A stretch of DNA of 64,000 bases from Ideonella benzenivorans (GTDB taxonomy: Bacteria; Pseudomonadota; Gammaproteobacteria; Burkholderiales; Burkholderiaceae_C), in assembly GCF_020387415.1 (NCBI RefSeq), contig NZ_JAGWCB010000008.1:263690-327689 (forward strand). Direction: 5' to 3'. This document shows, one piece after another, positions 20,851 to 25,967 of the stretch. Positions within the stretch are counted from its first letter, which is position 1, and each line of letters starts with the position of its first letter. The notes under the pieces were generated by a model. That model saw nothing but the letters and a program-made list of their open reading frames with translations. It was not told where the DNA came from and made no database searches. Made by a program: the position numbers and the translations under genes.

Positions 20851-22668
20851 TCAGACCACGCTGTCCCAGGGGGCCGACAGGCGCACCGCGCCGTGGATGA
20901 TGCCGACCATGGAATAGGTCTGCGGGAAGTTGCCCCACAGTTCGCCGGTGGTGGCGTGCATGTCCTCGCTGAGCAGGCCGACGTGGTTGCGCCGGGCCAG
21001 CAGGGCCTCGAAGGACTCGCGGGCTTCCTCGCGCCGGCCGATGCGGGCCAGCGCATCCACCCGCCAGAAGGAGCAGACGTTGAAGGCCACCTCGGGCTTG
21101 CCGAAGTCGTCGGCCGCCTCGTAACGCCGCATGAAGGGGCCGTCGCACAGCGTGCGCTCCATGGCTTCGACGGTCTGGATGAAGCGCGGGTCGTTGGGCG
21201 GCAGAAAGCCGACCTCGCCCATCAGCAGCACGCTGGCGTCCAGGTCTTGGCCGCCAAAGCTATCGGTGAAGGCCTGGCGCTTGTCGCTCCAGGCGTGCGC
21301 CAGGATGTCGGCGTGGATCTTGGCGGCGCGGGCCTGCCAGAAGTGGGCCCGCTCGGGCAGACCCAGCGGGCCGGCGATGCGGGCCAGCCGGTCGCAGGCC
21401 GCCCAGCACATCAGCGTGGACGAGGTGTGCACGCGGGAGCGGGTGCGCAGCTCCCAGATGCCAGCGTCCGGCTGGTCGTGCAGGCGCCAGGCCTGTTCGC
21501 CCATGGCCTCCAGCGCGGCAAAGTCGGCGCTGTCGCCACGGCGGAACAGGCGGTGGTCATGGAAGGCCTGGGCCGCACCCAGCACGATGTTGCCGTACAC
21601 GTCGTGCTGGAAGTGCTCGTAGGCCTGGTTGCCCACCCGCACCGGGCCCATGCCGCGGTAGCCGGCGGCCTGCGGCACGATGGATTCGGGCAGGGCCCGC
21701 TCCAGGCCGATGCCGTAGAGCGGCTGCACGTGGTCGCCGGGCGTGCTGCGGATGACGTTGTAGAGCCAGTTCAGGTAGCTCTCCATCGTACCCACCTCGG
21801 ACAGGCCGTTGAGCGCCCGCACCACGAAGAAGGCGTCGCGCAGCCAGCAGTAGCGGTAGTCCCAGTTGCGGCCGCTGTTGGCTGCTTCGGGGATGCTGGT
21901 GGTCATGGCGGCGACGATGGCGCCCGTTTCCTCGTACTGGCAGAGCTTGAGGGTGATGGCCGCGCGGATCACCGCGTCCTGCCATTCCAGCGGCAGGGCC
22001 AGACGGTGGGTCCAGTTGCGCCAGTGCAGGCTGGTGGCTTCCTCGAAATCCCGGGCGGTTTCTTCGATGCCGCCGGACAGCGTCTCGTCCGGGCCCAGCA
22101 GCAGGCTGACCGGGCCATGCAGCGAGAACCAGGTGCCGTCCAGCAGGTAGGTCAGCGGCACGTTGGTGTTCAGACGCAGCGTGATGTCCGGCAGCACGAA
22201 GCGCAGGTGGTGGCTGCCGCGGGTCAGCGTGGGGGCGGTGGCACCCCAGTCACCGCGGGGCTTGACCGAGAAGCGCACCCGCGGGTGGCCGGCCAGGGGG
22301 CGCACGCGCCGGATCAGCTGGGCCGGGCGGAACACCCGCTCGCGGGTGATGAAGCGGGGCGCGAAGTCCACCACCTCGATGCCCTGGCCCTGGCCATCCC
22401 ACAGCCGGGTGCGCAGAATGGCGGTGCCGTCGTCGTACTGCTGCTCGGTGCGGGTCAGGCCTTCCAGCTCCACCGTCAGCGCGCCATCCAGCGGCAGGCC
22501 CTCGGCCGAGTGCAGCAGGGCATCGAACACCGGTGGGCTGTCGAAGCGGGGCAGGCAGGCCCAGACCAGGCTGGCCCGGTTGTCCACCAGCGCGCTGATC
22601 GCACAGTTGCCGATCAGCGCCAGATCCAGAGAGGCGGCGGGGCGGGGAGCAGCGGCGGGAGAGGTCAT
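20851..22668 (-). CDS. Glycoside hydrolase family 15 protein (glucoamylase/trehalase-like)
   Basis: 605-residue GH15 enzyme of the intracellular type often found with trehalose-phosphate synthase genes. An N-terminal beta-sandwich (about 15-230) precedes an (alpha/alpha)6 barrel with 'GRNWDYRYCWLRDAFF' (about 266-281) and the C-terminal 'LLSEDMHATTGELWGNFPQT' (about 568-587), where the acidic catalytic residues reside in the family. Substrate may be trehalose, glucan or a related disaccharide. It is divergent from otsA. The ATG at 22668 has GGAG 12 bases upstream. Confidence 0.88.
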   Translation of the reverse strand: MTSPAAAPRPAASLDLALIGNCAISALVDNRASLVWACLPRFDSPPVFDALLHSAEGLPLDGALTVELEGLTRTEQQYDDGTAILRTRLWDGQGQGIEVVDFAPRFITRERVFRPAQLIRRVRPLAGHPRVRFSVKPRGDWGATAPTLTRGSHHLRFVLPDITLRLNTNVPLTYLLDGTWFSLHGPVSLLLGPDETLSGGIEETARDFEEATSLHWRNWTHRLALPLEWQDAVIRAAITLKLCQYEETGAIVAAMTTSIPEAANSGRNWDYRYCWLRDAFFVVRALNGLSEVGTMESYLNWLYNVIRSTPGDHVQPLYGIGLERALPESIVPQAAGYRGMGPVRVGNQAYEHFQHDVYGNIVLGAAQAFHDHRLFRRGDSADFAALEAMGEQAWRLHDQPDAGIWELRTRSRVHTSSTLMCWAACDRLARIAGPLGLPERAHFWQARAAKIHADILAHAWSDKRQAFTDSFGGQDLDASVLLMGEVGFLPPNDPRFIQTVEAMERTLCDGPFMRRYEAADDFGKPEVAFNVCSFWRVDALARIGRREEARESFEALLARRNHVGLLSEDMHATTGELWGNFPQTYSMVGIIHGAVRLSAPWDSVV

Positions 22669-22698
22669 CAAGAAAGACTCCGGGTTCCGGGATGGAAC

Positions 22699-22741
22699 TT
22701 GAGATGATGGGGCTGTGGCACTATATATTTATACAAATATA
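22699..22741 (+). promoter_or_regulatory. Putative sigma-70 promoter of otsA overlapping an AT palindrome
   Basis: TTGAGA (22699-22704), 17-base spacer, TATATA (22722-22727). The -10 overlaps a perfect inverted repeat, TATATTT-ATAC-AAATATA (22724-22741), a plausible operator. This is the most AT-rich short stretch in the neighbourhood and lies between the divergent GH15 and otsA genes. Confidence 0.55.
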
Positions 22742-22800
22742 AAGAAGCGCGTTTCCAATGACCGCCAGGCACGACCGGCGGAGAAGGGTTCATCCCAGGC

Positions 22801-25200
22801 ATGTTCAAGACACTGCGACTTCAGCTTCGGTTCCTCCTGCCCCTGACGGTGACCTTGGTGGCGGCGGCGTACTTGGCGGTACCGTTGCTGGACCAGGTGA
22901 CTTTGCGCTGGTTTGCCCGCGATCTCAACAGCCGTGGGGCGCTGGTGGCCGGCACCTTGTCGGACAACGCGGCCGAGGCGATCACCAGCGGGTATTTCGG
23001 GCGGCTGCGCGCCATGATGGAACGGGTGGCGCAGGATGAGCGGCTGTTCGCCATGGGGCTGTGCAGCCCGAGCGGTGATTGGCTGGTGCGCACCTCCGGT
23101 TTCCCGGCCGACCTGAGCTGCCGGCGGGCCGAAGAGGTGGCGGCCCAGCCGGAACACCGTCTGGCGCTGGCCGGCGGGCCCGTCCACCTGGGGGTGCACC
23201 CGGTGATGGGGTTGCCGCCGGCGGCGCCGGTGGCGCAAACCCCGATGACGGCGGCCTCTTCGGCGGCCCAGGCCTCCAGCCTGTTCGTCGGGCCGCTGAT
23301 CGAACCGCGGGCGCAGCCCGAGGACACCGCGCCCATCCTGCTGGGCGAGCTGGTGCTGGTTCATGACCTCAGCTTCATCGAGCGCCGCAGCCAGGACACC
23401 CGGCGCTATCTGATCGTCTTCCTGGCGGTGCTGGGCTTCGTGATCGCGCTGATCACGATGGTGGTGGCGCAGCTGAGCTGGCGCGGCTGGGTCAACGGCG
23501 TGCGTGCCATCCTGCGGGGCGAGGGCCTGCTCACCCCAATGGTGCCGGCGCCGGAACTGGCGCCGTTCGCCAAGGAGATGCAGCTGCGCCTGCGCGACCT
23601 GGAGGACGAGTACCGTCGCCTGCAGGGGCCGGAATCCGACTGGACGGCCGAGCGGCTGCGGGCCCTGCTGCACACCCAGCTGCGGGGAGACCAGGTGATC
23701 GTGGTTTCCAACCGCGAGCCCTACATCCATGAGCGGGGCGAGAACGGCAGCGTGGTCGTGCGCCGCCCCGCCAGTGGTCTGGTCACCGCGGTGGAGCCGG
23801 TGATGCGGGCCTGCTCGGGCACCTGGATCGCCCACGGCAGCGGCAGTGCCGACCGCGAGGTGGTGGACGACCGCGACCGCGTGCCGGTGCCACCGGGGCA
23901 CGACGACTACTACCTGCGGCGCATCTGGCTGTCCCCGGACGAGGAGCGCGGCTATTACTTCGGCTTTGCCAACGAAGGGCTCTGGCCGCTGTGCCATGTG
24001 GCGCATGTGCGGCCGGTGTTCCGGGAAAGCGACTGGGAGGCCTACAAGGCCGTGAACCAGCGCTTTGCCGACGCGGTGGTGGCCGAGGCCCGCAGCGAGG
24101 ACCCGGTGGTGCTGGTGCAGGACTACCACTTCGCGCTGCTGCCGGCCATGGTGCGCGAGAAGCTGCCGCAGGCCACCATCCTGACCTTCTGGCACATCCC
24201 CTGGCCGAACCCGGAGTCCTTCGGTATCTGCCCGTGGCGCAAGGAGCTGCTGCAGGGCATGCTGGGTTCCACCATCCTGGGCTTTCACACCCGCTTCCAC
24301 TGCCGCAACTTCATGGAGACGGTGGACCGCTACCTGGAGGCGCGCATCGAGCAGGAGCACTCGACCATCTCCTACCAGGACAAGGAGACGCTGGTGGAGG
24401 CCTACCCGATCTCCATCGAGTGGCCGAGCGCCGCCACCGTGGCGAGCTGGGGCCCCGTGGCCCAGTGCCGCCAGCGGGTGATCGAACGCCTGGGCCTGCC
24501 CGAGGACGTCTGCCTGGCCGTCGGGGTGGACCGTTTCGACTACACCAAGGGCATCCTGGAGCGGCTCAACGCGGTGGAGCGCCTGCTGGAAAAGCACCCG
24601 GACTGGATCGGCCGCTTTGTCTTCGTCCAGGTGGCCGCGCCCACCCGCAGCTCGCTGGAGGAATACCGCAGCTTCCAGGAGCGCATCGAACGCCTGACCC
24701 ACCGCATCAACGAGCGCTTCGGCCGCCCGGACTACCAGCCGGTGCACCTGCTGGCCCAGCACCATGAGCCCGAGAAGGTCAACGAGCTGTTCCGCGCCGC
24801 CAACATCTGCGTGGTGACCAGCCTGCACGACGGCATGAACCTGGTCAGCAAGGAGTTTGTCGCGGCGCGCGACGACGAGCAGGGCGTGCTGCTGCTCAGC
24901 CGCTTTGCCGGTGCGGCCCGCGAGCTGACCGAGGCCCTGATCGTGAACCCCTACCACGTCGAGGAGACGGCCGACGCCCTCTACCAGGCCGCCACCATGC
25001 CCTCGGCCGAGCAGCGCGAGCGCATGGCCAGCCTGCGCAGCACGGTGCATGAGTTCAATGTGTACCGCTGGGCCGGCCACATGTTGAGCGACGCTGCGCG
25101 CTGGCGCCTGCGGGCCCGGGTCGAAGCACGGGTGCGGCGCTTCCAGAACGCCGGCCCTTCATCGAACTCTGACCTGCGTCCCGCATCGGATCACCCATGA
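22801..25200 (+). CDS. otsA: Trehalose-6-phosphate synthase with N-terminal membrane sensor-like module
   Basis: Makes trehalose-6-phosphate from UDP- (or ADP-) glucose and glucose-6-phosphate (GT20). The GT20 domain begins near residue 298 ('[10 protein letters not shown]') and shows 'DYHFALLP', '[10 protein letters not shown]', '[11 protein letters not shown]' and '[14 protein letters not shown]'. Unlike ordinary OtsA (about 460-500 residues) the protein has 799 residues. TM1 (about 8-30) is followed by an extracytoplasmic region of about 170 residues, TM2 (about 202-225) and a HAMP-like linker (226-275). This is the layout of a membrane receptor. Its stop overlaps the otsB start. Confidence 0.93.
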
Positions 25201-25967
25201 GGCATTTGTTCAGTCCGGAAGGCGAGGCGGCCCTGGTCGCCGCCCTCCAATACCAGCCCCTGCTGGCCTTCGATTTCGATGGCACCCTGGCGCCCATCGT
25301 CCCCCGGCCGGGCGACGCCCGGGTGTCCCGGGCGGTCGCGGGGCGTCTGAGCCAGCTGATGCGCTGGCTGCCGGTGGCCATCGTCACCGGCCGGCGGGTC
25401 GAGGATGTGCGCGAGCGGCTGGGCTTCGTGCCCAGCTACGTGGTGGGCAACCATGGCGCGGAGGACGAGGCCGACCCGGCGGTGGGCCAGGCCTTGTGCG
25501 AGGCGTTGGACAGCGCGCGCGAGTTGCTGCTGCAGCGTGAACCGGTGCTGAAGGCGGCCGGCGTCAGCGTGGAGGACAAGCAGCAGTCGATCGCCTTGCA
25601 CTACCGGCTGGCGCGTGACCGCGACCGGGCCAGGCAGGTGATCGACGAGGTGCTGGAAGGCCTGGGGCCGACCCTCACCGTGTTCGGCGGCAAGTTGGTG
25701 GTCAACCTGACCCCGGCCGATGCGCCGGACAAGGCCCATGCCGTGCGCACGCTGGTGGCCCGCAGCGGCGCGGGCGGGGCCTTGTTCGCCGGCGACGACC
25801 TGAACGACGAACCGGTGTTTGCCGCCGCGGCGCCGCACTGGCTGACGATCAAGATCGGTCGCGAGCCTGCCCACACCCGTGCGGCCTTCTTCCTGGAGAA
25901 CCCGGCCGAGATGGCCTTGCTGCTGGAACGCATCCTGGGCCTGGTGCCCAAGCTGCTGGCGCGCTGA
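25197..25967 (+). CDS. otsB: Trehalose-6-phosphate phosphatase
   Basis: HAD-superfamily phosphatase that converts trehalose-6-phosphate to trehalose, completing the OtsA/OtsB pathway. The 256-residue protein has the catalytic DFDGTLAP (about 24-31), motif II 'VAIVTGRR' (about 60-67), the cap region, and motif IV 'FAGDDLNDEPVF' (about 198-209). The ATG overlaps the otsA stop (ATGA), indicating coupled translation. Confidence 0.95.
   Translation: MRHLFSPEGEAALVAALQYQPLLAFDFDGTLAPIVPRPGDARVSRAVAGRLSQLMRWLPVAIVTGRRVEDVRERLGFVPSYVVGNHGAEDEADPAVGQALCEALDSARELLLQREPVLKAAGVSVEDKQQSIALHYRLARDRDRARQVIDEVLEGLGPTLTVFGGKLVVNLTPADAPDKAHAVRTLVARSGAGGALFAGDDLNDEPVFAAAAPHWLTIKIGREPAHTRAAFFLENPAEMALLLERILGLVPKLLAR

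Follow-up and report, generated by a model that had tools for sequence, protein, structure and literature searches.

The gene at positions 22801 to 25200 of the window (the whole analysed stretch of 64,000 nucleotides from Ideonella benzenivorans) encodes a protein in which, as computation shows, a sensor-kinase-type input module is fused to, and conserved together with, a GT20 enzyme. The best explanation for this arrangement is a membrane-bound, receptor-gated trehalose-6-phosphate (T6P) synthase, a reading favoured here with modest confidence. A preliminary description of this DNA had claimed about 300 extra N-terminal residues carrying TM1, an extracytoplasmic region of about 170 residues and TM2 ahead of the GT20 domain, and the open reading frame, the PF00982 match, hydropathy and conservation confirm this layout. 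Taken as a whole, that reading is partly supported, being right in form; its idea that envelope or osmotic stress is sensed and directly switches trehalose synthesis stands as a hypothesis on function. In the window protein, 296 residues (TM1, the extracytoplasmic part, TM2 and the HAMP-like linker) precede the GT20 domain. The stretch between the two TMs comprises approximately 175–178 residues, about 40 of which form the loop at residues 138–178. The features of the locus are the following.

20851–22671, − strand: divergent GH15 trehalase-like protein (PF00723 and PF19291 TREH_N over cut-off)
22672–22800, no strand: divergent intergenic region with an AT-rich stretch (sequence composition)
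22801–25200, + strand: receptor-like OtsA (sensor–GT20 fusion), 799 aa, ATG start (open reading frame and relatives)
22819–22875, + strand: TM1, residues 7–25 (hydropathy; helix 2–63 in the models), with the N-terminus probably inside
22891–23400, + strand: PAS-like (Cache) extracytoplasmic sensor domain, predicted, residues ~31–200 (AlphaFold pLDDT, Foldseek, VIA-align)
23062–23064, + strand: Cys88, invariant in 61 of 61 rows, end of strand 82–88
23119–23121, + strand: Cys107, invariant in 61 of 61 rows, start of helix 107–115, possible disulfide partner of Cys88
23212–23334, + strand: Ala-rich, poorly ordered loop, residues 138–178, present in near relatives (pLDDT, alignment gaps, dN/dS)
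23410–23466, + strand: TM2, residues 204–222, continuous with helix 191–238 (hydropathy and AlphaFold)
23479–23625, + strand: HAMP-like two-helix linker, residues ~227–275 (helices 191–238 and 251–274; kinase profile match; without a Pfam HAMP match)
23641–23688, + strand: stretch with invariant W281, L286 and G296 and helix 283–292 (alignment and model)
23692–25098, + strand: GT20 (OtsA) domain, residues 298–766 (PF00982)
23713–23778, + strand: predicted N-loop R305–G326 (alignment to 5jij, assigned via the NR and GGL motifs)
25197–25967, + strand: otsB, trehalose-6-phosphate phosphatase (PF02358 and TIGR00685 over cut-off)

The TM positions derive from hydropathy on the trimmed stretch, renumbered to the window protein. 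Directly after the start codon lies the motif TLRLQLRF, whose conservation in near relatives supports the ATG start; a wrong start codon was rejected on this conservation and on the retention of the extension in the best 80 relative loci.

The extension is a recurrent feature. A contig scan using a profile of the extension plus the first GT20 residues yielded at least 466 coding relatives, the best 80 of which constitute the loci named here. In these 80, the alignment covers the extension wholly or for the most part, with some matches starting at residues 26–31 and one ending at residue 282. By record title, their hosts are Betaproteobacteria (Ideonella, Rubrivivax, Ramlibacter, Roseateles and others), Geobacter, Syntrophus, Smithella and one Lysobacter, in addition to metagenome bins labelled Acidobacteria, Gemmatimonadetes, Oligoflexia and Verrucomicrobia, some of which may be mislabelled. 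Thus, within the best 80 of at least 466 relatives, the layout recurs mainly in Betaproteobacteria and Geobacter-like bacteria. Two TMs are predicted by hydropathy in all 76 rows from these loci with a GT20 part of at least 380 residues. The alignment used throughout contains 61 rows, i.e. the window protein and 60 of the 80 loci, the other 20 being truncated, near-identical or with a start unrecognised by the pattern. Within the window's order, 399 genomes were searched, and the extension profile is found in 29 of the 66 that have a GT20 gene over cut-off. In a spread of genomes of the class, the first profile matches 11 of 274, including the window's own: six carry the window class, four carry only a sister class of sensor–GT20 proteins and one match is weak (L108). 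This sister class comprises six rows (L104–L107, L113 and L211), and its own query finds six clear and three weak genomes of 369. One further extension-profile match, in G567, was discarded, being on reading a protein of the sensor–GGDEF–EAL type and not a GT20 enzyme.

Since all 50 matches listed for the whole model in the fold search are T6P synthases (GT20), the extension was also folded alone. The AlphaFold model of residues 1–296, built on the 61-row alignment, has a mean pLDDT of 86.9, with block means of 93–98 at residues 31–140, 98 at 181–190 and 60–84 at 141–180. The predicted order is helix 2–63 (including TM1), helix 67–79, strands 82–88 and 94–97, and helix 107–115, followed by strands 120–123, 126–137 and 179–189, helix 191–238 (including TM2), and helices 251–274 and 283–292. 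The long first helix of the predicted extracytoplasmic fold is a continuation of TM1. According to the Cache census, a long N-terminal helix directly extending TM1 is the hallmark of Cache domains (PMC4822843); the window model has it, and likewise shares the C-terminal helix running into TM2. The modelled fold of the extension is therefore a Cache arrangement, an extracytoplasmic PAS-like domain between two TMs.

Comparison with solved sensors by VIA-align gives a Z of 11.8 for CitA (109 aligned residues, rmsd 2.5), followed by WalK (10.8), LuxQ (10.7), DcuS (10.5), DctB (10.5) and CusS (9.7), values of 10–12 being less telling here in that a Z below approximately 13 can be common for helix-rich models. 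Two points count against this caveat: periplasmic sensor domains make up nearly all of the 50 structural matches listed, and the alignment to CitA spans most of a PAS-like domain. In Foldseek, the extension alone has one match at E ≤ 0.001 (a WalK model), then CitA and DctB at 0.05, and its top matches are sensor kinases. Searched alone, the window extension matches no Pfam family at E ≤ 10, Cache models included, and no NCBIfam model; CHASE4 is touched by two of the 61 rows in Pfam (best E 0.007); and the 61-row profile, run against PDB sequences, gives two matches only, at E 0.28 and 0.34.

Twenty-three residues of the extension are invariant in the 61-row alignment, including W37, D41, R45, D79–E80–R81, C88, C107, D189 and R196. 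Compared with L018, the extension has a dN of 0.101 and a dS of 0.623 (dN/dS ~0.16), and the GT20 part has a dN of 0.052 and a dS of 0.35 (dN/dS ~0.15); the extension is under about the same dN/dS as the enzyme part. The loop at residues 138–178 changes faster (dN 0.261, dS 0.676, dN/dS ~0.39, against the same relative). It is gapped in most of the alignment rows shown, and L066 carries a different insert at this site. A genome of the same genus (G015) contains two sensor–OtsA genes (L008 and L015), one with this extra loop and the other lacking it.

The extension also shows kinship with sensor kinases. The heavy-metal sensor kinase model TIGR01386 (NCBIfam) is matched by 10 of the 61 members at E ≤ 0.001. 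When 20 N-terminal parts were scanned alone against it, eight matched at E ≤ 0.1 (five at ≤ 0.001) and 12 did not match. The matches fall in the input half of the kinase, roughly positions 3–190 of 457, and in L072 extend through 232; the best N-terminal part scores 27.4 bits, which does not reach the curated kinase cut-off of 292.55. In a direct profile–profile comparison, the extension matches a profile of 17 kinases (30 loci fetched, 19 taken, two dropped for stops in the cut stretch) with a probability of 93, an E of 2.5e-7 and a score of 53.7 over 208 columns, collinear from TM1 to HAMP. The reversed control has a probability of 0.5, and the scores of 100 full shuffles and 100 TM-preserving shuffles stay at or below 27.6 and 31.7, respectively. 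Split into parts, TM2 plus linker matches the kinase profile at E 3e-5 and the cytoplasmic linker at 4.5e-4, and the periplasmic part reaches only 0.012. The chemoreceptor or sensor-kinase layout given in the preliminary description is borne out on the kinase side by the fold, the shuffle-controlled profile match and the phylogeny described below; on the chemoreceptor side, no MCP signalling domain is among the Pfam matches listed for the window protein or the 61 rows. A kinase domain is likewise absent from the Pfam matches of the window protein.

The linker is modelled as two helices after TM2 (191–238 and 251–274 in AlphaFold), with pLDDT block means over residues 231–280 of 60–90 in the extension model and 47–65 in the full-length model. 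In the window class it bears the motif WRGW...RGEGL...PELxPF...LRDLEDEY. PF00672 (HAMP) is matched in Pfam by none of the 61 rows at E ≤ 1, and an hhalign comparison of the linker with 27 of the 38 HAMP matches of its own genome is insignificant (probability 1.3). The sister class has a more ordinary linker, starting with ERPL, which matches the 27 own-genome HAMPs at E 3.2e-5, shuffle controls being available only for the kinase comparison of the window class. The sister class further matches the kinases at E 4.2e-10 and the window class at E 6e-15, both values being without a shuffled control. The window linker is read here as a HAMP whose connector has become shorter and whose first helix has eroded. 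The term HAMP-like is apt as a description and weak as a domain call, the linker being degenerate, shortened and invisible to Pfam; in the sister class, the HAMP is recognisable.

The preliminary description had named as fatal to it a lack of any sensor-fold or HAMP signal, with homologues keeping only two random hydrophobic segments; instead, a sensor fold, a profile match and conservation among homologues were found. A chance pair of hydrophobic segments is excluded by conservation in the best 80 loci, the invariant residues, the fold and the shuffled controls. An artefact in the wider sense, with unrelated hydrophobic segments or a misplaced start ahead of an ordinary OtsA, is a negligible prospect, with nothing found in its favour, against the same conservation, the two TMs, the confident fold and a profile match that beats its shuffles.

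The GT20 domain itself is recognised by Pfam: PF00982 covers residues 298–766 with 422.5 bits (cut-off 32.5, E 2.7e-126). The OtsA equivalog model TIGR02400 gives 433.1 bits, under its cut-off of 564.85, so that the protein is termed a GT20 relative of OtsA and not called an equivalog. R305, G326, R578, K583, D677 and E685 are invariant in the 61 rows and are presumably N-loop or substrate-site residues, with roles assigned by analogy. The window enzyme probably makes T6P. The GT20 part might instead use another acceptor and yield a different phosphorylated glucoside, in which case the system would not be about trehalose. A branch of length 1.09 does set its clade clearly off from the soluble OtsA rows and the TIGR02400 score does fall short, whereas the same score of 433 exceeds that for glucosylglycerol-phosphate synthase (304, NCBIfam), an otsB over cut-off adjoins, the other neighbour is trehalase-like and the listed fold matches are T6P synthases, making a different product very unlikely. 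No other GT20 gene was found in the assembly, and TreS and TreZ have no own-genome match over their curated cut-offs; with this single GT20 gene, the window gene may consequently be the main trehalose route of its genome. Own-genome genes at G000:C9:205313-210296 match the TreS/TreZ models below cut-off and are probably GH13 relatives.

The otsB reading frame starts inside otsA with a 4-base overlap (25197–25200), and its product passes the T6P phosphatase cut-off. The GH15 neighbour carries a trehalase-type N-terminal domain, with a TreH1 score of 266.9 bits, below the cut-off of 820. By tblastn with the proteins of the window, otsB lies directly downstream in 56 of the 70 relative loci with room for it, the 14 loci without it being mostly from Ramlibacter and its kin, and the GH15 gene is in the locus of 28 of 58 relatives, in 17 arranged as in the window. 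An ordinary OtsA–OtsB fusion was considered and rejected as the identity of the window protein. The intergenic region between the GH15 gene and otsA is GC-rich apart from an AT-rich stretch (22720–22745), a possible regulatory site; a sigma-70 consensus scan of this divergent region found no promoter.

A GT20 tree was built from 87 rows picked by hand, 34 of which are of the window class. In this tree, a phylogeny of the kind suggested in the preliminary description, one clade (SH-aLRT 100) unites all 39 sensor-bearing rows and also takes in four forms with a single TM and one that is soluble. Outside it fall the remaining soluble rows as well as the phosphatase–GT20 fusions. A topology in which the sensor-bearing rows form a clade without the five anchor or soluble rows is rejected (AU p 0.0206). 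Four rows (L196, L197, L203 and L205) have one TM and approximately 90–110 residues before GT20 and are nested among the sensor-bearing rows; apparently they have lost the sensor and kept the anchor. A fifth (L012, genome G021) has no TM, lies in the same clade on a long branch with a support of 85, which makes its placement less sure, and is apparently a second sensor loss. One gain and two losses (three changes) are the cheapest reading of the sensor distribution. The tree program warns that the whole sensor clade meets another clade on long branches; given this warning, the long branch of L012 and the hand-picked rows, any depth read for the origin is provisional.

Some rows deserve separate mention. 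L110 (G252:C53), a relative of the window class outside the 76 rows with two TMs, and also L101 have lost approximately 40 residues in frame, among them TM2 and the beginning of the linker, while the GT20 frame stays open; the enzyme topology of L110 would change, and a sister-class copy, L113, is present in its genome too. L145, L146, L153 and L194 were considered as further fusions and set aside, as on reading they begin with a HAD-phosphatase-like stretch and are without a TM. Seven others (L147, L148, L159, L161, L163, L169 and L192) are assigned a phosphatase-like N-terminal part by length and tree position. Eleven tree rows are labelled 'HAD', mostly by length, and the label of L185, with its first Met two residues before GT20, is doubtful, which leaves the sensor clade unaffected.

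The members with a single TM or none indicate that the sensor is dispensable for the GT20 enzyme of this clade, and simple membrane tethering is the main rival to receptor gating. As a tether only, the module would keep T6P production on the inner membrane, close to OtsB, the substrate supply or an exporter, and its sensor would no longer signal. The nested single-TM rows, the less surely placed TM-free L012 and a HAMP so degenerate that Pfam misses it in 61 of 61 rows are consistent with such a role. However, a mere anchor would need neither a dN/dS equal to that of the enzyme nor two TMs kept in 76 of 76 rows, and the sensor residues listed above, among them W37 and R196, vary in none of the 61 rows, which come from several phyla. 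Tethering alone is thus regarded as unlikely, though the most serious competitor.

For the favoured receptor-gated synthase, a fuller scheme can be outlined, in which a periplasmic Cache sensor controls the N-loop of the T6P synthase directly by way of TM2 and a degenerate HAMP, with neither phosphorelay nor second messenger, in several phyla and from one ancient origin; it is advanced tentatively and could go either way. The protein would be a homodimer or a dimer of dimers. A periplasmic cue (a small ligand, an ion or the redox state of Cys88–Cys107) would shift the TM2 helix, which is predicted to run on as a single helix, 191–238, into the HAMP-like linker. Helix 251–274 and the short helix 283–292 may relay the change to the N-loop, R305–G326. 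In the models, the last helix before the enzyme ends approximately 13 residues ahead of R305; this proximity and the continuity of TM2 with the linker are the geometry from which the coupling idea arises. The W281/L286 stretch is also found in sensor-less members of the clade (L203 and L012), which makes it a property of the GT20 clade and not proof of coupling. In E. coli OtsA, the N-loop Arg9–Gly22 touches both substrates and is mobile during catalysis (PMC5685639). By alignment to 5jij, R305–G326 is its predicted counterpart, and by this analogy it would have to close over glucose-6-phosphate and UDP-glucose, so that repositioning of the helix could open or close the active site. Within such a scheme, T6P output would be set at the membrane by one protein, OtsB would complete the trehalose, and its removal would fall to the trehalase-like enzyme, requiring no kinase, response regulator or transcription step.

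The cysteine pair bears on the nature of the cue. Both cysteines were found by pattern in 92 of 94 rows, some of them copies of the same gene, and the pair is visible on reading in both misses. With such an invariant pair, redox sensing is plausible, as is a pocket stabilised by a disulfide. In the redox case, a Cys88–Cys107 disulfide might report the oxidative state of the periplasm with no small ligand, as the position of the cysteines at the end of strand 82–88 and the start of helix 107–115 would allow. Nevertheless, the four sister-class rows that were read (L104, L105, L106 and L113) have the same layout and no such pair, and an ordinary structural disulfide accounts for the pair equally well; redox gating as the entire signal is quite unlikely.

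Kinases, chemotaxis, second-messenger enzymes and transcription are known outputs of transmembrane receptor modules. In this conserved and widespread family, a sugar-making enzyme occupies the receptor output position. If the gated reading is true, a transmembrane receptor has a glycosyltransferase of primary metabolism as its output, giving a one-protein receptor–enzyme for osmolyte synthesis. Trehalose synthesis could then be raised or lowered at the membrane with no need for new gene expression, and, the output reaction being simple and measurable, the coupling of receptor to enzyme could be assayed directly. Furthermore, the architecture lends itself to a chimera with a sensor of known ligand. 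No paper on a sensor-fused GT20 was found in the open PMC literature, the body of work covered by this search; the architecture may already be known to annotators.

The phosphatase–GT20 fusions share the GT20 domain and approximately 250–350 extra N-terminal residues with the window protein; they differ in a HAD-like N-terminal part (L145, L146, L153 and L194), the lack of a TM and their position in another GT20 clade, and are perhaps of the glucosylglycerol-phosphate synthase/phosphatase type. In Table 1 of the Cache census, the outputs are histidine kinases, chemoreceptors, c-di-GMP enzymes, nucleotide cyclases, Ser phosphatases, Ser/Thr kinases, ion channels and transcription factors; unlike the window output, no glycosyltransferase or primary metabolic enzyme stands in the columns available (PMC4822843). 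The OtsA of Arthrobacter is described as an osmotic stress sensor acting via T6P and self-assembly, and the word 'transmembrane' has no occurrence in that text (PMC5685639). In Ramlibacter tataouinensis, a trio of otsB, a GH15 trehalase candidate and otsA (Rta_36480-36500) resembles the window locus; the synthase is named as an ordinary one and the sensor module goes unmentioned in the available portion of the genome paper (PMC3164672). The Ramlibacter sensor loci of this study carry the extension, yet none has otsB or GH15 nearby by tblastn, and the Rta_36500 otsA may therefore be another gene.

With the heavy-metal sensor kinases (TIGR01386, cztS_silS_copS; CusS type), the window protein shares the collinear module of TM1, periplasmic PAS-like domain, TM2 and HAMP, and differs in being without a kinase domain and in having a glycosyltransferase as output, metal binding not being indicated. 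The extracytoplasmic sensors of CitA, DcuS, WalK, DctB and LuxQ have the same predicted fold as the window protein, with an identity of 6–18 % over the aligned parts. Classical OtsA (E. coli 1gz5, M. thermoresistibile 5jij) has the GT20 fold, the motifs and the otsB partner in common with it. Compared with the soluble rows fetched, mostly of approximately 460–540 aa, the window protein possesses 296 additional residues, two TMs and a predicted sensor fold, and belongs to a separate clade.
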